A DNA stretch of 64,000 nt from positions 7,353,001 to 7,417,000 of the forward strand of contig NZ_JAUSZH010000001.1 of NCBI RefSeq assembly GCF_030817355.1. The letters run 5' to 3'. This DNA is from Streptomyces sp. V1I1 (GTDB lineage Bacteria > Actinomycetota > Actinomycetes > Streptomycetales > Streptomycetaceae). How positions within the stretch are numbered: position 1 is the first letter of the stretch; every line of letters starts with the position of its first letter. The notes under the pieces were generated by a model, which made no database searches, had not been told where the DNA came from, and saw only the letters and a program-made list of their open reading frames with translations. Below are positions 55,641 through 64,000 of this stretch, piece after piece. The translations under genes and the position numbers were made by a program.

Positions 55641-56019
55641 GGTATCGGTCGCTTCCTGTCGTGCCCGGCCCGATACCGGCGCGGGCGCTTCCGAAAGCCG
55701 CCGTGATGCGGCGTTCGATTCACCCTGGAGGGGGACTCGTCACCCCAGAGGGGGATTGCGCCGCCCCGGCCCCCGGAAGCCGCCGCGGTCGACCGCCCGC
55801 TCGCGGCAGCCCATATCGTCGAGCCGTTCGTTACTCCTCGTGCGCGTCAAGCCGCCTTCCCGGCAAGCGGCACCGGAACGTAACGCATCAGCCCATGCCC
55901 AATGCGTAGGGTCCTTGACCGTGGATCGCGCCTCCACGATGCTGTTGTTGCGACACGTGAGATGCGTGCCGTAATAAGCAACGCAATTCCCATGGGTGCG
56001 TATCAGTCGAGGAGTGGCC
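55641..56019. other. Intergenic region, 379 bp, upstream of mscR
   Basis: No credible gene. The right third holds a two-dyad operator candidate (55947-55982) and a GAGGAG ribosome site. The left part contains GAGGGGGA(C/T)T repeats around 55730-55755. Confidence 0.5.
55947..55982. promoter_or_regulatory. Candidate tandem-dyad operator upstream of mscR
   Basis: First half GTTGCG-ACACG-TGAGAT (55947-55963), second GTGCCG-TAATA-AGCAAC (55966-55982), start-to-start 19 bp. The outer half-sites GTTGCG and AGCAAC match the motif found upstream of betA and the Rieske genes; the inner ones are degenerate. Confidence 0.45.
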
Positions 56020-57105
56020 ATGACTCACCAGGTCCGTGCTGTCGTCGCGCGAGGGAAAGGCGCCCCCGTCAGCCTGGAAACAATCATCGTGCCTGACCCC
56101 GGCCCGGGTGAGGCGCTGGTGAACATCGAGGCCTGCGGGGTTTGCCACACCGATCTGCACTATCGCGAGGGCGGCATCAGCGACGACTTCCCCTTCCTGC
56201 TCGGCCATGAGGCCGCGGGTCGGGTCGAGGCGGTCGGCGAGGGTGTCACCGAGGTCGCGCCGGGCGACTTTGTCATCCTGAACTGGCGTGCGGTCTGCGG
56301 CCAGTGCCGGGCCTGTCTGCGAGGGCGCCCCTGGTACTGCTTCAACACCCACAACGCCAAGCAGAAGATGACCCTCGCCGACGGCACCGAGCTGTCCCCG
56401 GCCCTGGGCATCGGCGCATTCGCCGAGAAGACGCTGGTGGCGGCCGGGCAGTGTACGAAGGTCGACGAGCGGGCGTCGGCCGCGGTCGCAGGGCTCCTGG
56501 GCTGCGGTGTGATGGCGGGCATCGGCGCCGCCATCAACACCGGCGCCGTCGGGCGTGGTGATTCCGTCGCCGTCATCGGCTGTGGCGGCGTGGGCGACGC
56601 GGCGATCGCCGGGTCCCGGCTCGCGGGCGCGGCGAAGATCATCGCGGTGGACATCGACGAGCGGAAGCTGGCCACCGCGAAGAAGATCGGCGCAACCCAC
56701 ACGGTCAACTCCAAGGAGACCGATCCGGTCGAGGCGGTCCGCGAACTGACCGGCGGCTTCGGTGCGGACGTCGTCATCGAGGCCGTCGGCCGCCCGGAGA
56801 CGTACAAGCAGGCCTTCTACGCCCGCGACCTCGCCGGGACCGTCGTCCTCGTCGGCGTCCCGACTCCGGAGATGAAGCTCGAGCTTCCGCTGCTGGACGT
56901 CTTCGGACGCGGCGGATCGCTCAAGTCGTCCTGGTACGGGGACTGCCTCCCGAGCCGCGACTTCCCGATGCTGATCGACCTCCATCTGCAGGGGCGCCTG
57001 GATCTGGATGCGTTCGTGACAGAGACGATCGCGCTCGACGATGTCGAGAAGGCCTTCGAGCGGATGCATCACGGTGACGTGCTGCGCTCGGTGGTGGTCT
57101 TCTGA
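56020..57105 (+). CDS. mscR: S-(hydroxymethyl)mycothiol dehydrogenase (formaldehyde detoxification)
   Basis: A 361-residue zinc-dependent class III alcohol dehydrogenase. Catalytic zinc ligands are in [15 protein letters not shown] and GHEAAGRVE, structural-zinc cysteines in [15 protein letters not shown], and the NAD-binding fold in [16 protein letters not shown]. Sequence and length fit the mycothiol-dependent formaldehyde dehydrogenase of actinobacteria, which oxidises the formaldehyde-mycothiol adduct to S-formylmycothiol. GAGGAGTGGCC precedes ATG 56020. Its stop overlaps the next start (TGATG). Its place next to an N-demethylating Rieske system explains the need: demethylation releases formaldehyde. 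Confidence 0.88.
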
Positions 57106-57734
57106 TGACCGCAGGCATCGACCGACTGGGCACCTCCGGCACCTTCTCCCTGGACGGCGGCACCTGGGACGTCGACAACAACGTGTGGATCGTCGGCGAC
57201 GACCGGGAAGCGGTCGTCATCGACGCCGCGCACGACGCGGACGCCATCGCTGCCGCGCTCGGGGGCCGGACGCTTCGCGCGATCGTCTGCACACACGCCC
57301 ACAACGACCACATCGACGCCGCCCCGGCGCTCGCCGACCGGACCGGCGCTCCGATTCTGCTGCACCCGGACGACCTTCCGTTGTGGAAGCAGACCCACTC
57401 CGAGCGGCTGCCCGACGCCGAACTGGCCGACGGGCAGGTCCTGACAGTGGCGGGTGTCGATCTGACGGTGCTGCACACCCCCGGGCACGCCCCCGGAGCG
57501 GTCTGCCTGTACGCGCCGGCTCTGAACGCCCTTTTCAGCGGTGACACGCTCTTCGCGGGCGGGCCGGGGGCGACGGGTCGGTCGTACAGCCACTTCGGCA
57601 CCATCATCGAGTCGATCCGGGACCGGCTGCTGGCGTTGCCGGGCGACACTGTCGTGCACACCGGCCATGGGGATACGACCACCATCGCCGCGGAGGCCCC
57701 GCATCTTCAGGAGTGGATCGACCGCGGGTTCTGA
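57105..57734 (+). CDS. MBL-fold metallo-hydrolase, partner of mscR
   Basis: A 209-residue metallo-beta-lactamase-fold enzyme with the metal motif ICTHAHNDHIDAAPAL (HxHxDH), LHTPGHAPGAVCLY, FSGDTLFAGGPGATG and VVHTGHGDTTTI. It is translationally coupled to mscR (TGATG). This pair is conserved in actinobacteria; the hydrolase probably cleaves S-formylmycothiol or a related thioester, a role inferred from context and from glyoxalase-II-like family members. Confidence 0.85.
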   Translation: MTAGIDRLGTSGTFSLDGGTWDVDNNVWIVGDDREAVVIDAAHDADAIAAALGGRTLRAIVCTHAHNDHIDAAPALADRTGAPILLHPDDLPLWKQTHSERLPDAELADGQVLTVAGVDLTVLHTPGHAPGAVCLYAPALNALFSGDTLFAGGPGATGRSYSHFGTIIESIRDRLLALPGDTVVHTGHGDTTTIAAEAPHLQEWIDRGF

Positions 57735-57777
57735 CCGTGGGTTCCGACTGCGGGTTCTGAACTGCGGGTTCTGACCG
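57723..57777. repeat. Imperfect GCGGGTTCTGACC direct repeats
   Basis: Four imperfect copies of a 12-16 bp unit (GCGGGTTCTGAxC) run from the end of the MBL gene into the short gap before sdaA; a related CTCGGGTCAGCA pair follows at 57790-57817. They overlap the last codons and may be slippage products. Confidence 0.55.
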
Positions 57778-57811
57778 CCTCGCGGCGGCCTCGGGTCAGC
57801 ATTTCCTCGGG

Positions 57812-59188
<1,377 letters not shown>

Positions 59189-59209
59189 GTCGTACCCTCC
59201 GAGTCCGAA

Positions 59210-59245
59210 GTTGTGTAGTGCGCACAGCGTTGCGTAAAAAGAAAC
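59210..59245. promoter_or_regulatory. Candidate tandem-dyad operator upstream of sdaA
   Basis: GTTGTG-TAGTG-CGCACA (59210-59226) and GTTGCG-TAAAA-AGAAAC (59229-59245), spaced 19 bp start to start, lie 22-57 bp before the sdaA start codon. Confidence 0.55.
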
Positions 59246-59311
59246 ATGGAACAAGGGGTCGGCCCGCCCGGAGGATGCCTTGACACGGGCTTTGGGGGAC
59301 TTCAAACTGGC

Positions 59312-59347
59312 GTTGCGCTAACCGCAATCCGTTTCGCTATATGCACC
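59312..59347. promoter_or_regulatory. Candidate tandem-dyad operator upstream of the Rieske operon
   Basis: GTTGCG-CTAAC-CGCAAT (59312-59328) is nearly perfect; GTTTCG-CTATA-TGCACC (59331-59347) follows in the same 19-bp register. They end 18 bp before the Rieske ferredoxin start codon. Confidence 0.6.
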
Positions 59348-59365
59348 CGAGTCACCCGAGGTGTC

Positions 59366-59728
59366 ATGATGATTCCCGCGTGCCGTCTCGCGGATCTGCC
59401 GCGAGGCGAGGCCTACCGGCTCGACATCGATCCGCCCGTCTCGGTGTTCCACACCGATGACGGCGAGGTCTTCGCCATCGACGACACTTGCACCCACCAG
59501 GATGCGTCGCTCGCCGACGGCTGGCTGGAGGGCCGCGAGGTCGAATGCCCGCTGCATGCCTCGAAGTTCGACCTCCGGACGGGGGCCGTCGACTCACCGC
59601 CTGCCAAGCTCCCCGTCCGCACCCATCAGGTCCTGATCGAGGACGGCATGATCTACGTCCAGCCGTCCACGGCGGCTCCGAATCTTCCGCCCTGCATCGC
59701 GGCACGGCTCGCCGGAGGTCTCGCGTGA
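59366..59728 (+). CDS. Rieske [2Fe-2S] ferredoxin
   Basis: A 120-residue Rieske protein. Cluster ligands: CTHQDASLADGWLEGREVEC (Cys and His of box 1, Cys of box 2) with CPLHASKFDLRTG completing box 2 (CxxH). It starts MMIPACRLADLPRGEAYRLD; GAGG is 6 nt before ATG 59366. It passes electrons from the reductase encoded next (GTGA overlap) to the Rieske oxygenase at 61016. The C-terminal tail after residue 100 is longer than in typical BphA3-type ferredoxins. Confidence 0.88.
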   Translation: MMIPACRLADLPRGEAYRLDIDPPVSVFHTDDGEVFAIDDTCTHQDASLADGWLEGREVECPLHASKFDLRTGAVDSPPAKLPVRTHQVLIEDGMIYVQPSTAAPNLPPCIAARLAGGLA

Positions 59729-60888
59729 GGACCGTGGCCGTGGTGGGCGCCTCGCTCGCCGGACTGTCGGCCGCGCGTTCCCTGCGCAAGCAGGGCTACG
59801 ACGGACGGCTCGTCGTGATCGGTGACGAGCCGCACCGCCCGTACGACAGGCCGCCGCTGTCCAAGGAGTTCCTCGCCGGCACGATCCGTGAAGCGGATCT
59901 CGCGCTGGAGGCGGACGGCGAGGACCTGCAGGCGGAGTGGCTGCTCGGCGTGCGGGCCGCAGGATTCGACCCCGGTGACCACGCCGTCCGGCTTGCGGAC
60001 GGCCGGTCCGTCCGGGCCGACGGGGTCGTCGTCGCCACGGGTGCGACCGCGCGCACGCTTCCGGGCGGCGAGGGCCTCGCCGGAGTGCATACGCTGCGCA
60101 CCCTGGACGAAGCCCGTGCCCTGCGGGCCGACCTCGCCCGGGGCGGGCGGCTGGTGGTGATCGGCGGCGGGTTCATCGGCGCCGAGGTCGCCTCGACCGC
60201 GTACGGCCTGGGACTTGACGTGACGGTCATCGAGGCGGCGCCGACTCCGCTGGCCGGACCGCTCGGCGAGGCAATGGGCGGCATCGTCTCCACGCTCCAT
60301 GCGGACCACGGCGTACGCCTGCTGTGCGGCGTCGGCGTCAAAGGGCTGAGCGGGGCGGCTCGCGTCGAGGCGGTCCTGCTCGAGGACGGCCGCAGCATCC
60401 CGGCCGACACGGTCGTCGTAGGCGTGGGCGCCCGCCCGTGCGTCGAGTGGCTGGAGGGATCCGGCGTCGTACTGGACGACGGCGTCAAGTGCGGCGCGGA
60501 CGGCCGCACAAGCGTGTCCGGTGTGGTCGCGGTCGGCGACTGTGCCTCCTGGTACGACCCGGTCGCCGGGGTCCACCGTCGCGTCGAGCACTGGACCGGC
60601 GCGCGGGAACGGCCCGTCGCGGCCGTGGCCGCGCTGCTTTCCGGCGGTGCGGCGACGCCGGCGGTGCCCAAGCCGCCGTACTTCTGGTCGGACCAGTACG
60701 GCGTACGGATCCAGTTCGCCGGGCATTCCGCCGGGGCCGACAGTGTGACCGTCGAGGAGGGGCTCCCGGACGACCGCAGCTTCCTGGCGGTCTACAGGCG
60801 GTCGGGGCATCCGGTCGCGGTCCTCGGGATGAACCAGCCGCGCCTGTTCACCCTCTGGCGCAAGCAGCTCGCTGCCGCCACGCTCTGA
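59725..60888 (+). CDS. FAD-dependent ferredoxin reductase
   Basis: A 387-residue reductase of the BphA4/rubredoxin-reductase type: FAD-binding VRTVAVVGASLAGLSAARSL, the RPYDRPPLSKEFLAG motif, NAD-binding GRLVVIGGGFIGAEVASTAY, the second FAD motif GVVAVGDCASWYDP, and a C-terminal domain with PPYFWSDQYGVRIQFAGHS. It transfers electrons from NAD(P)H to the Rieske ferredoxin. Translational overlap with the ferredoxin gene is 4 bp. It replaces the CntB/GbcB-type fused reductase found in other betaine demethylases, giving a three-component system. Confidence 0.88.
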   Translation: MRTVAVVGASLAGLSAARSLRKQGYDGRLVVIGDEPHRPYDRPPLSKEFLAGTIREADLALEADGEDLQAEWLLGVRAAGFDPGDHAVRLADGRSVRADGVVVATGATARTLPGGEGLAGVHTLRTLDEARALRADLARGGRLVVIGGGFIGAEVASTAYGLGLDVTVIEAAPTPLAGPLGEAMGGIVSTLHADHGVRLLCGVGVKGLSGAARVEAVLLEDGRSIPADTVVVGVGARPCVEWLEGSGVVLDDGVKCGADGRTSVSGVVAVGDCASWYDPVAGVHRRVEHWTGARERPVAAVAALLSGGAATPAVPKPPYFWSDQYGVRIQFAGHSAGADSVTVEEGLPDDRSFLAVYRRSGHPVAVLGMNQPRLFTLWRKQLAAATL

Positions 60889-60913
60889 CGCCACTCGTGC
60901 GGTGTCACCTGCT

Positions 60914-60949
60914 GTTGCTCATCACGCCATGTATTGCATATCGCACCCG
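60914..60949. promoter_or_regulatory. Candidate tandem-dyad operator upstream of the Rieske oxygenase gene
   Basis: GTTGCT-CATCA-CGCCAT (60914-60930) and an ATTGCA half-site exactly 19 bp later (60933), followed by CGCACC with shortened spacing. It is weaker than the other copies but lies at the right place, about 70-100 bp before the start. Confidence 0.4.
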
Positions 60950-61015
60950 CCGTTCGGACTACCTCGTCCCCGGCGCGACGACCGACCGACGACGTCACCC
61001 CGCGAGGAGTGCATT

Positions 61016-62149
61016 GTGACCTCGACCAGCCTGCCGGACAGCCTGATCGCCACGCTCCCCGGCTCCTATTACACCGATCCCGGGATCTTCGCGCAGGAGC
61101 AGGAGCGCATCTTCGAGGCGATGTGGTTCTGCGTCGCGCGCTCCTCCGACCTGGCCAGGCCCGGCGCCTTCCGGACCGTCGACGTGGGCCGCGAGAGCAT
61201 CCTCGTCACCCGGGCCCGGGACAACTCCGTCCGAGCCTTCTTCAATGTCTGCCGGCACCGCGGCGCCAAGCTCTGCACGGAGGAGACCGGCGAGGTCAAG
61301 CGCGCCTTCCAGTGCCCGTACCACGCTTGGACGTACGACCTGACGGGCAAGCTCGTCGCGGCGCCCAACCTCACGAAGATGCCCGACGTCGGCCGTGTCG
61401 AGTACGGCCTGGCGAATGTGGCCTCTCGCGAATGGCTGGGCTATGTCTGGGTCTGTCTGGCGGAGAACCCGCCCTCCTTCGAGGAACAGGTCATCGGTGA
61501 GGTCGTCGCACGGCTCGGCGATGTGGAGTCGATCGAGCGCTACGACATGGAAAGCCTCGAAGTCGGCAGGCGGATCGTCTACGACGTGAAGGCGAACTGG
61601 AAGCTCATCATCGAGAACTTCATGGAGTGCTACCACTGCGCCACGATCCACCCGGAGCTCACGGAGGTTCTGCCGGAGTTCGCCGACGGCTATGCCGCGC
61701 AGTACTACGTCGGCCACGGCGCCGAATTCGGCGCGGAGATACAGGGCTTCACCGTGGACGGCTCCGAAGGCCTGGACCGCATCCCCGGGGTCTCCGAGGA
61801 CCAGGACCGCCGCTACTACGCGATCACCGTCCCGCCGCAGGTGTTCATCAACCTCGTCCCCGACCACGTGATCTTCCACCGGATGTACCCGGTCGCCGTC
61901 GACCGCACGATCGTCGAGTGCGACTGGCTCTACCTCAAGGACGTGGTGGACAGCGGCAGGGATGTCACCCGGTCCGTGGAGCTCTTCGACCGGGTCAACC
62001 GGCAGGACTTCGACGCCTGCGAGCGCTGCCAGCCCGCGATGAGCTCCCGCCTGTACGCCAAGGGCGGGGTACTCGTACCCAGCGAGCACCACATCGGCGC
62101 GTTCCACGACTGGATCCACGAGCGCCTGGGCACCCGGCAGGCGGAGTAG
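61016..62149 (+). CDS. Rieske-type oxygenase, probable glycine betaine demethylase
   Basis: A 377-residue aromatic-ring-hydroxylase-type alpha subunit. Rieske box: CRHRGAKLC (CxH) and CPYHAWTYDLTGKL (CxxH). Mononuclear iron ligands: two His in NFMECYHCATIHPEL and an Asp expected in the C-terminal half. Overall it resembles GbcA-like oxygenases that remove one methyl group from glycine betaine to give dimethylglycine and formaldehyde; proline-betaine demethylases are close relatives. The genomic setting (choline dehydrogenase, formaldehyde dehydrogenase, serine dehydratase) favours glycine betaine. GTG 61016 follows GAGGAG. Confidence 0.8.
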   Translation: MTSTSLPDSLIATLPGSYYTDPGIFAQEQERIFEAMWFCVARSSDLARPGAFRTVDVGRESILVTRARDNSVRAFFNVCRHRGAKLCTEETGEVKRAFQCPYHAWTYDLTGKLVAAPNLTKMPDVGRVEYGLANVASREWLGYVWVCLAENPPSFEEQVIGEVVARLGDVESIERYDMESLEVGRRIVYDVKANWKLIIENFMECYHCATIHPELTEVLPEFADGYAAQYYVGHGAEFGAEIQGFTVDGSEGLDRIPGVSEDQDRRYYAITVPPQVFINLVPDHVIFHRMYPVAVDRTIVECDWLYLKDVVDSGRDVTRSVELFDRVNRQDFDACERCQPAMSSRLYAKGGVLVPSEHHIGAFHDWIHERLGTRQAE

Positions 62150-62227
62150 TGCGGCAAGACCTGGGCCGCCGGGAATCCCCGCGGTGACCCACGTCCTACC
62201 TGCGGATCCGGCTCTACCGCGCCGGGG

Positions 62228-63025
62228 TCAGCCCAGGTAGCCCATTCGGTGACTGATCTCCTCGGCCCCCTTGATCAGCAGCGGGGCGACCTCGCGCATG
62301 CGCTCCTCGGTAAAGCGGTACGAGGGCCCTGACGCGCTGAGCGCCGCGATGACCTCTCCGTCCCGGGAGCGGACCGGCGCGGCCATGGCGTGCAGTCCGA
62401 GCTCCAGTTCCCCAAGGGTCCAGGAGTAGCCGTGTTCTCTGGCCTCGGCGAGGTTCTTCTCGAGCTTTGTCTTCGCGGTCACGGTGCGCGGGGTCATCTT
62501 CTTGAGGCCTGTCTGCGCCAGGAGCTCGGCACGCTCCTTGGCGGGCAGGTGGGCCAGCAGGATCTTGCCGCTGGAGGTGGCGTGCAGCGGGGTCAGCTGG
62601 CCGACCCAGTTGTGCGCCCCCACCGCCGCAGGGCCGCGCACCTGAAAGAGATTGATCGCGTAGTGCTCCTGCATGACGGCGACGTTCACGGTCTCGCCGA
62701 TCTCCTCGGCGAGGCGCTCGCAGACCGGGCGGCCCTGCTGCGTGATGTCGATGCGGCCCGTGACCGCGCCGGCCAGGCGCACGATGCCGAAGCCGAGGCG
62801 GTACTTGCCGCGCTCGCCCGCCTGCTCCACCAGACCGCGCGCCTCAAGTGCGCCGAGCAGGCGGAATGCGGTGGATTTATGGACGTCGATCTCGGCTGCC
62901 ACGTCACTGACGCCCGCTTCACCGTGTTGGGCAAGGATTTCCAGCACACTGATGGCACGGTCGACGGACTGGACTCCGCCGGGCTGCGATCCGGTCGTTT
63001 CGGTATCTGGACTGTAGTTGCTCAC
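62228..63025 (-). CDS. IclR family regulator of the choline/betaine cluster
   Basis: A 265-residue IclR protein: HTH SVDRAISVLEILAQHGEAGV and VHKSTAFRLLGALEARGLVE, effector domain LTPLHATSSGKILLAHLPAK, GLHAMAAPVRSRDGEVIAAL. GTG 63025 is chosen because TATAGT on the minus strand (complement of 63032-63037) stands 6 nt before it, a leaderless arrangement. It is divergent from betA, and the shared intergenic region holds the best copy of the GTTGCG-N5-CGCAAC motif. It is the obvious candidate regulator for all catabolic genes of this block. Confidence 0.88.
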   Translation of the reverse strand: MSNYSPDTETTGSQPGGVQSVDRAISVLEILAQHGEAGVSDVAAEIDVHKSTAFRLLGALEARGLVEQAGERGKYRLGFGIVRLAGAVTGRIDITQQGRPVCERLAEEIGETVNVAVMQEHYAINLFQVRGPAAVGAHNWVGQLTPLHATSSGKILLAHLPAKERAELLAQTGLKKMTPRTVTAKTKLEKNLAEAREHGYSWTLGELELGLHAMAAPVRSRDGEVIAALSASGPSYRFTEERMREVAPLLIKGAEEISHRMGYLG

Positions 63026-63031
63026 AACGAA

Positions 63032-63037
63032 ACTATA
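63032..63037 (-). promoter_or_regulatory. Leaderless -10 box (TATAGT) of the iclR gene
   Basis: Read on the minus strand, TATAGT is followed by TTCGTT and the GTG start at 63025. Confidence 0.6.
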
Positions 63038-63082
63038 CGCGCAGTAAACAACAGCTGCGCAGAGGTACGCACGTCCCGGTAA

Positions 63083-63118
63083 GTTGCGTGGCTCGCAACC
63101 TGGTGCGTATAGCGCTAC
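63083..63118. promoter_or_regulatory. Tandem-dyad operator between iclR and betA
   Basis: GTTGCG-TGGCT-CGCAAC (63083-63099) is a perfect inverted repeat. GGTGCG-TATAG-CGCTAC (63102-63118) follows in 19-bp register with one mismatch per arm. It lies 52-87 bp before betA and 58-93 bp before iclR. Confidence 0.7.
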
Positions 63119-63169: not shown

Positions 63170-64000
63170 ATGGCTCCCCTGCAGTACGACTTCGTCATCG
63201 TCGGCGGCGGATCGGCCGGCAGCGCACTGGCGAACCGGCTCTCCGCTGATCCGGGCAACCGCGTGCTGGTCCTGGAGGCCGGCCGGTCCGACTATCCGTG
63301 GGACGTGTTCATCCACATGCCGGCGGCGCTGACCTACCCCATCGGCAGCCGCTTCTACGACTGGAAGTACGAATCCGAGCCCGAGCCCAACATGGGCGGC
63401 CGGCGCGTCTACCACGCCCGTGGCAAGGTGCTCGGCGGCTCCAGCAGCATCAACGGCATGATCTTCCAGCGCGGCAACCCCATGGACTACGAGCGGTGGG
63501 CGGCCGACCCGGGCATGGAGACCTGGGACTACGCCCACTGCCTGCCGTACTTCCAGCGCATGGAGAACTGCCTGGCGGCCGACCCCGACGACGAGTTCCG
63601 CGGCCACGACGGCCCCCTCGTCCTCGAACGCGGCCCGGCCTCCAGCCCGCTCTTCCCCGCCTTCCTCGAGGCCGTCCAGGAAGCCGGCTACCCCCGCACC
63701 GACGACGTCAACGGCTACCGGCAGGAAGGCTTCGCCCCCTTCGACCGCAACGTCCACCGCGGACGCCGCCTGTCGGCATCGAAGGCCTACCTCAAGCCCG
63801 TGAAGAGGCGGCCGAATCTTGACGTCAAGACCCGTGCCCTGGTCACCCGCGTGCTCTTCGAGGGCAAGCGCGCCGTCGGCGTCGAGTACCGGCGCGGCCG
63901 CGGCAAGCCCCAGCAGGTCCGCGCCCGCGAGGTCATCCTCTGCGGCGGCGCGATCAACTCCCCGCAGCTGCTGCAGCTCTCCGGCGTCGGCAACGCCAAG
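63170..64000 (+). CDS. betA: Choline dehydrogenase-like GMC oxidoreductase (partial, runs off the window)
   Basis: The first 277 residues of a GMC-family flavoenzyme: FAD-binding [40 protein letters not shown], the GMC signature [20 protein letters not shown], and [20 protein letters not shown]. Order and spacing match choline dehydrogenase BetA, which oxidises choline to betaine aldehyde. ATG 63170 has a GAGG ribosome site. It lies downstream of the tandem operator shared with iclR. The C-terminal half, with the catalytic His, is beyond the edge. Confidence 0.85.

Follow-up and report, generated by a model that had tools for sequence, protein, structure and literature searches.

A conserved tandem-dyad operator delineates a predicted IclR-type regulon for choline/betaine-to-pyruvate catabolism in Streptomyces sp. 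V1I1

A gene cluster of Streptomyces sp. V1I1 that we assign to the catabolism of choline and glycine betaine carries nine copies of one 36-bp operator, each composed of two 17-bp dyads, GTTGCG-N5-CGCAAC, that start 19 bp apart. The element was read from a 64,000-nucleotide stretch of contig NZ_JAUSZH010000001.1 (positions 7,353,001 to 7,417,000; hereafter the window). Six of the nine tandem sites lie in the window and three just past its end, and all of them fall within 17 kb of the 8.3-Mb genome (contig positions 7408947-7425772). The sites hold to one register, are conserved in related loci, are specific to the cluster on the genome-wide scale and co-occur across genomes with an iclR gene. 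They are probably the operators of a single local regulon, in which the IclR protein encoded at 62228-63025 would bind each pair as two dimers and repress the genes of the route from choline to pyruvate.

The initial annotation had named five promoters with paired dyads 19 bp apart, and all five pairs are present. The mscR operator (55947-55982, forward strand; dyads at 55947 and 55966) scores 17 out of 24 and lies -73 to -38 from the start codon, the sdaA operator (59210-59245, reverse strand; dyads at 59210 and 59229) scores 19 at -57 to -22, and the operator of the Rieske ferredoxin/reductase (fdx) operon (59312-59347, forward strand; dyads at 59312 and 59331) scores 20 at -54 to -19. The betA operator (63083-63118, forward strand; -87 to -52) scores 22, the top value in the window and in the surrounding 40 kb. 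It had been described as perfect, which is true of its first dyad (63083); the second (63102) has 2 mismatches. The fifth site, before the Rieske oxygenase gene (60914-60949, forward strand; -102 to -67), is degenerate with a score of 15, because in its second dyad the left half-site ATTGCA (60933) alone is in register and the right half-site is two bases out. We discarded a possible third dyad at 63064, ahead of the betA site, which is weak and was seen in some, but not all, of the small number of relatives inspected.

The earlier list had also given iclR/betA as one site. Two separate tandem sites in fact lie between these genes: 63083-63118 is that of betA, and the other, left out of the list, runs across the iclR start codon (63017-63052, reverse strand; score 17; -27 to +8) and is partly coding. 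The three sites past the window end start at positions 66759, 66903 and 72737 on the window's scale and precede purU (about -50 to -15 from the start codon), a betB-like gene and a gene for a dimethylglycine (DMG)-type oxidoreductase of the FAD/GcvT type, respectively. The operators thus span -102 to +8 relative to predicted start codons. Within a selected set of sites, the outer half-sites are richer in information than the inner ones, and position 4 of the dyad is G in 0.91 of the rows.

The dyad alone proves nothing: with up to 3 mismatches allowed, the window contains 45 single dyads versus 57.5 expected, which is no enrichment. The 19-bp pairing, by contrast, is enriched. Tandem scores (24 letters) of at least 19 were found three times in the window and in 0 of 60 first-order Markov copies. 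Scores of at least 17 were found seven times, versus 0.92 expected per copy and a maximum of 4 in any copy; among these seven places, 63064 is a 19-bp-shifted shadow of the betA site and 26211 is outside the cluster. When registers from 12 to 44 were compared over the cluster region, register 19 paired four good dyads and every other register none or one. The window count would not be enough to establish the sites of mscR and iclR (17 each) or of the oxygenase (15); the case for these three comes from conservation.

Whole-genome scans did not find the motif at similar density at unrelated promoters. The pattern GTTGC-N7-GCAA-N4-TTGC-N7-GCAAC with up to 3 mismatches matched five places, all of them in the cluster (fdx, betA, betB, DMG and sdaA), and its reversed control matched 0. 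A longer pattern fitted to betA matched three cluster sites and one place elsewhere (1850082), and its reversed control matched once. A sequence-only model, R1, was built from sites of other species: 32 were taken, in both orientations, out of 46 that had been selected as strong and different from one another, so that R1 favors strong sites. It contains no sequence of the V1I1 genome and no sdaA site, and its iclR site from locus L078 is letter-for-letter identical to the V1I1 site at 63017. With 150 of 2053 candidates scored, R1 returned 15 rows at E up to 10, comprising seven cluster sites on both strands each and one weaker place, and it recovered the sdaA operator at E 0.068 although it lacked any sdaA site. 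The weaker place, a distant candidate at 5091114-5091151 (dyads in register 21, E 3.8), was set aside as the site of another regulator or as chance; the gene behind it resembles the solute-binding protein of a sugar ABC transporter (GanS, 75 bits; cut-off, 700).

We consider it extremely improbable that the dyads are chance or compositional repeats instead of operators. Such an origin would agree with a single dyad no commoner than in shuffles, with the weak oxygenase copy and with the stray matches of the betA-fitted pattern and its control, but it is already contradicted by the three scores of at least 19 absent from all Markov copies, by the confinement of all five genome matches to the cluster and by conservation in related species.

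For that comparison, we used 80 loci of 277 relatives, fetched by the IclR protein at 85-89% identity; by title, 78 are Streptomyces (two of them metagenome-assembled genomes), one is Actinacidiphila and one is "Actinobacteria bacterium". Upstream regions were left out when the gene match was below 50% identity, started after residue 20 or ran off the contig. The species are related, and the site counts are not independent. Gene order is preserved in most loci long enough to reveal it. Among registers 12-30 in the 250 bp upstream, register 19 scored highest at the eight operator-bearing starts compared (mscR, fdx, oxygenase, iclR, betA, purU, betB and DMG); the margin was narrow for the oxygenase (15.56 for register 19 versus 14.99 for register 27), and the results for iclR and betA, and for purU and betB, are not independent because each pair shares an intergenic region. 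At starts within operons (the MBL-fold hydrolase, the reductase and three transporter genes), the register-19 score in these relatives was like that of shuffled DNA.

Sites scoring at least 17 were present where expected for mscR in 52 of 59 regions, fdx in 72 of 72, the oxygenase in 33 of 73, iclR in 44 of 80, betA in 68 of 68, purU in 48 of 48, betB in 63 of 64 and DMG in 47 of 47. The iclR site reaches at least 16 at -27 in 76 of 80 orthologues; since the operator is partly coding, its conservation is not purely regulatory. For the oxygenase, 40 of 73 regions have a tandem score of at least 16, and 31 of these sites are at -101 to -104, the place of the degenerate copy in the window. At seven gene starts (iclR not among them), half-site columns exceeded spacer and flank columns in conservation; this comparison was anchored on the best-scoring site and so favors half-sites, above all where the site is weak, as at the oxygenase.

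The proposed binder (62228-63025, reverse strand) has an N-terminal HTH_IclR domain (PF09339; 56.1 bits, cut-off 22) and a C-terminal IclR_C domain (PF01614; 146.6 bits, cut-off 24), both above gathering scores, and its nearest solved chains are IclR-family regulators. The domains place it in the IclR family, and the spacing of 19 bp at the nine V1I1 sites (the oxygenase copy degenerate) and in relatives falls within the 18-22 nt known for tandem sites of this family. Its recognition-helix core, VHKSTAFR, recurs in the Streptomyces cluster-linked proteins listed (12 distinct close orthologues, 6 second copies and 11 of a form with 55-60% identity), with L117 as the exception, and in 7 of 11 proteins from other families, where the exceptions read VHRSTAFR, VHKSTASR and, twice, IHKSTVSR. 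In the V1I1 genome, 43 matches to HTH_IclR pass the cut-off, and 13, among them that of this regulator, exceed 40 bits; eight of the nine paralogues listed differ clearly in the recognition helix. Two loci with close iclR copies each were seen in Streptomyces canus DSM 40017 and in S. jeddahensis (L070 and L080; L025 and L074).

Co-occurrence was examined in 61 genomes of the genus, the V1I1 genome included, which are not independent of one another. R1 matched 25 of them at E up to 0.5. At least 10 R1 rows were found in exactly 11 genomes, and these are the same 11 in which the best IclR orthologue reaches 81% identity or more; all others have at most 4 rows. The orthologue of 55-60% identity occurs in 14 more genomes, 12 of which have R1 sites, and the rows listed for these genomes are within about 350 bases of that iclR. 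R1 therefore matched 23 of 25 genomes with an iclR orthologue of at least 55% identity versus 2 of 36 without one (Fisher p about 2e-12, relatedness ignored); the 36 include G002 and G021, which have IclR relatives of 49-50% identity and no R1 match. Clusters around the 55-60% form have a changed arrangement (fdr-fdx, iclR, mscR-mbl-DMG, oxygenase-betB), with sites in front of fdx, of mscR or of both; G032, unmatched by R1, has a site with a score of 19. Among the matches listed, full-cluster genomes have a few R1 rows away from the cluster (e.g., G022:C245 and G024:C21). At the former (L208:8112-8166), three dyads stand in 19-bp steps away from the choline cluster, flanked by frames that resemble, by eye, tellurite-resistance terC and terD.

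Genomes in which the regulator and the enzymes are separated bear on the same question. G058 has the DMG-type oxidoreductase (62%) and the oxygenase (66%); no iclR was found there at E 1e-50, and no site was found (best score, 16 in 20 kb), which is perhaps a natural loss of the regulator. Judged by eye, the neighbors at this locus (L213, G058:C1:930001-950000) are similar to those around the isolated iclR of G003. In G003 and G017, iclR has an adjoining R1 site (weak in G017, E 0.17), and no oxygenase was found at E 1e-80. Together with G027, described below, these few genomes suggest that the site has IclR as its partner and not the enzymes.

Across the class, an IclR relative was found at E 1e-60 in 49 of 296 genomes. 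Of 30 of these loci that were compared, 16 are outside the genus, and 7 of the 16 reach a tandem score of at least 18 within 1.5 kb; the maximum over 20 base shuffles of these stretches was 16-18. When larger regions were taken for 11 of the 16, 9 had at least one site scoring at least 18 (L159 and L160 had none). These sites adjoin iclR or precede genes of the cluster, for instance DMG, betB, purU, fdx or mscR. L094, L097, L099, L111, L210 and L211 are more choline/betaine loci or sections of the cluster; they have an additional IclR paralogue (68-79%), an oxygenase and operators of the same kind, and four also contain an sdaA.

These results suggest that the operators are very likely bound by the IclR protein of the cluster, the candidate already put forward in the initial annotation; co-occurrence, the conserved recognition helix and the tandem architecture known for IclR sites (PMC8222616) all support it. 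Another regulator of the genome, for example a second IclR-type protein with the cluster iclR as a mere neighbor, is a very unlikely binder. The genome does have the 43 HTH_IclR matches mentioned above, and one paralogue, L169 (35% identity), has the similar helix VHKSTALRLL. However, the sites accompany this iclR across genomes, G058 keeps pathway genes with neither the iclR nor a site found, and no further regulator was seen among the cluster proteins scanned, which cover part of the reading frames.

Each 36-bp element would accommodate two dimers of the IclR protein, with one dimer on each 17-bp palindrome; because the dyad centers are 19 bp apart, both dimers would lie on almost the same side of the helix. 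The protein would most likely act as a repressor and, through the site at the iclR start codon, limit its own expression as well. Repression is likely in our view, because the predicted starts follow the operator ends at a distance of about 15 to 67 bp and one operator overlaps the iclR start codon. Release would come from an inducer, which is rather probably a compound of the pathway, namely choline, glycine betaine, dimethylglycine or a later product.

Some IclR-family regulators, PobR and PcaU among them, are activators that work with a co-inducer, and the same protein at the same sites could activate the pathway in this manner. Distance from the start would allow activation at three operators, those of the oxygenase (-102 to -67), betA (-87 to -52) and mscR (-73 to -38). 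The positions at purU (about -50 to -15), fdx (-54 to -19) and iclR (-27 to +8) better fit blocking, and we regard activation as rather unlikely. We also considered a promoter inside the operator, with the -35 element in the first dyad and the -10 element in the second, and found no support for it.

Several observations weigh against a single repressed regulon bound by this IclR protein. Operator position does not fix the sign of control, and the start codons are predictions. In the region, 0 sigma-70-like promoters were found versus 0.9 expected, and no consistent -10-like element was seen inside the second dyad. The five-place genome pattern finds five of the nine operators, the other four being too distant from it; the R1 genome search, within the candidates it scored, listed neither the mscR nor the oxygenase site; and weak distant targets may exist elsewhere in the genome. 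The similar helix of L169 belongs here too. Among the other genomes, G010 and G031 have weak R1 matches (E 0.48 and 0.39) without an orthologue, G007 has a third IclR (70%) without a site nearby, and G027 has an IclR of 55-56% identity with VHRSTAFRLL in place of VHKSTAFRLL, no cluster genes nearby, no site and no oxygenase found at E 1e-80. Repression of one local regulon by IclR 62228-63025 remains the reading that we prefer.

The genes behind the operators fit a route from choline through betaine, dimethylglycine, sarcosine, glycine and serine to pyruvate. The initial annotation had proposed such a pathway, and the proposal gains from the pathway genes that continue past the window with three more operators. 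In the window, mscR (56020-57105, forward strand) encodes an S-(hydroxymethyl)mycothiol dehydrogenase for formaldehyde disposal (TIGR03451; 696.7 bits, cut-off 512.9) and is followed in its operon by an MBL-fold hydrolase gene (57105-57734, forward strand; PF00753), whose orthologues start without an operator. The Rieske ferredoxin (59366-59728, forward strand; PF00355) passes the cut-off of NF007422 (142.2 bits, cut-off 113), a ferredoxin family named for 3-phenylpropionate dioxygenase; this match suggests a general ferredoxin rather than one tied to a single substrate. An FAD ferredoxin reductase (59725-60888, forward strand; PF07992 and PF14759) and the Rieske oxygenase (61016-62149, forward strand) follow. 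The oxygenase is a probable glycine betaine N-demethylase: its best NCBIfam match is GbcA (NF058607; 220.6 bits, below the cut-off of 670), and its top PDB chains include 4qup, a monooxygenase/demethylase by name, and 6y8j, a carnitine monooxygenase. Choline dehydrogenase is encoded by betA (63170-64000 in the window and on to window-scale 64828, forward strand; TIGR01810, 858.8 bits, cut-off 732.1). Directly behind betA is a methylenetetrahydrofolate reductase-like frame (window-scale 64849-65649, L005:9849-10649; PF02219, 25.7 bits, cut-off 24; TIGR00676, 44.8 bits, below 293.7).

Past the window are the betB-like gene, a betaine/choline-type ABC transporter, the oxidoreductase, folD, glyA, sox genes and purU. 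The betB-like aldehyde dehydrogenase has TIGR01804 as its best match (596.4 bits, below the cut-off of 668.6). The DMG operon runs from the FAD/GcvT-type oxidoreductase through folD, glyA and soxB to a SoxD-SoxA frame and soxG; "DMG oxidoreductase" is a name given by context alone, since the part scanned (732 of 812 residues) is above no family cut-off. MscR, SdaA, choline dehydrogenase, PurU, FolD, GlyA, SoxB, SoxA and SoxD and two transporter subunits are above curated cut-offs; the oxygenase, with GbcA, the aldehyde dehydrogenase, with BADH, and SoxG have these as best matches below the cut-offs. Because the oxygenase and the aldehyde dehydrogenase both fall below their family cut-offs, we infer the betaine steps, including the N-demethylase activity, from context. 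SoxD and SoxA are fused in one frame of 1085 residues (window-scale 78636-81893, L006:3636-6893; soxD, 123.3 bits, cut-off 116.5; soxA, 1272.9 bits, cut-off 1164), and a 664-aa choline/betaine ABC permease with two matched stretches (window-scale 69539-71533, L005:14539-16533) is possibly a fused pair. Between the transporter genes and the DMG operon is a 19-pair terminator-like hairpin (window-scale 72628-72671), from a scan that found 9 such hairpins with 5.3 expected. The regulon would control the steps from choline through betaine aldehyde, glycine betaine, dimethylglycine, sarcosine, glycine and serine to pyruvate; its genes would also serve betaine or choline uptake and the disposal of the methyl groups by mycothiol-dependent formaldehyde oxidation and folate enzymes.

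The last step is assigned to sdaA (57812-59188, reverse strand), which encodes an L-serine ammonia-lyase converting serine to pyruvate (TIGR00720; 698.5 bits, cut-off 345.1). The V1I1 genome has two sdaA genes, the cluster copy with the operator and another at 2414809 (69% identical). No site was found upstream of 16 housekeeping-type sdaA genes from 16 genomes (best scores, 11-15; one region of 207 bases). In one tree of 24 rows with some open branches, the cluster sdaA and those of G040 and G024 form one clade (support 100/100) apart from housekeeping sdaA, and the latter two carry the same operator with a score of 20 each. Among the 80 loci, sdaA is beside the cluster in one, L010 (S. rhizosphaerihabitans), whose sdaA is identical to that of G024, the two being probably one assembly. 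The regulon sdaA of G024 (L102, G024:C39, 69185-70351) lacks about 65 residues near its start, and its operator is intact. In G007, G013 and G049, a different sdaA clade stands behind glyA at a further locus with an IclR paralogue and operators, and in G009 the same second clade is found near the cluster edge with a score-17 site at -108. Because two separate clades carry operators and the second (support 99/98) groups with housekeeping-type genes, serine deaminase probably entered the regulon twice.

BetI and GbdR, of the TetR and AraC families, are regulators of choline or betaine catabolism in proteobacteria. The regulator described here likewise serves choline or betaine catabolism in our reading but has IclR domains. 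Its best NCBIfam match is BhcR (NF045644; 193.3 bits, below the cut-off of 350), which controls different genes. TphR belongs to a terephthalate pathway in another phylum. In Table 1 of PMC8222616, the TphR site of Comamonas is TTTTTGCGCATAGCGCAAAAA, and its core, TTGCGCATAGCGCAA, fits the dyad seen here. According to the same paper (Suvorova and Gelfand 2021), tandem palindromic IclR sites 18-22 nt apart are predicted for 94 of 181 orthologous groups, and they include 17-bp GTT-11-AAC palindromes paired with 19 bp between centers, as in our operator. The GTT-11-AAC subgroup published there, GTTYCRYW3RYGRAAC, agrees with the operator in length, in the GTT/AAC ends and in C5, G6 and Y7, whereas it has Y/R at positions 4/14, where the operator has G/C. 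Choline, betaine and sarcosine do not occur in the main text of PMC8222616 (supplements aside), and the passages of PMC7434839 that mention an IclR gene and betaine genes treat them separately, not as a regulon. Among the papers listed in searches of the open literature (subscription papers, RegPrecise and the PMC8222616 supplements aside), we found no description of an IclR-controlled choline/betaine regulon in actinobacteria. The circuit is well supported and of an ordinary kind, tandem palindromes being standard for the IclR family.

For the whole choline-to-pyruvate pathway of Streptomyces, our findings propose a regulator together with its operator code and a list of targets, and they offer a candidate sensor for choline or betaine. 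In G058, they provide a natural example of regulator and operators being absent together, and in sdaA, a recruited gene brought under the operator. On a slight balance of the evidence, we favor the view that this protein is an unrecognised actinobacterial master regulator of choline/betaine catabolism, whose operator would be old, surviving rearrangement of the cluster and reaching several families of the class, and that Streptomyces may have captured an sdaA paralogue at least two times independently under an operator of the same kind, so that the last step to pyruvate would come under the control of the pathway.

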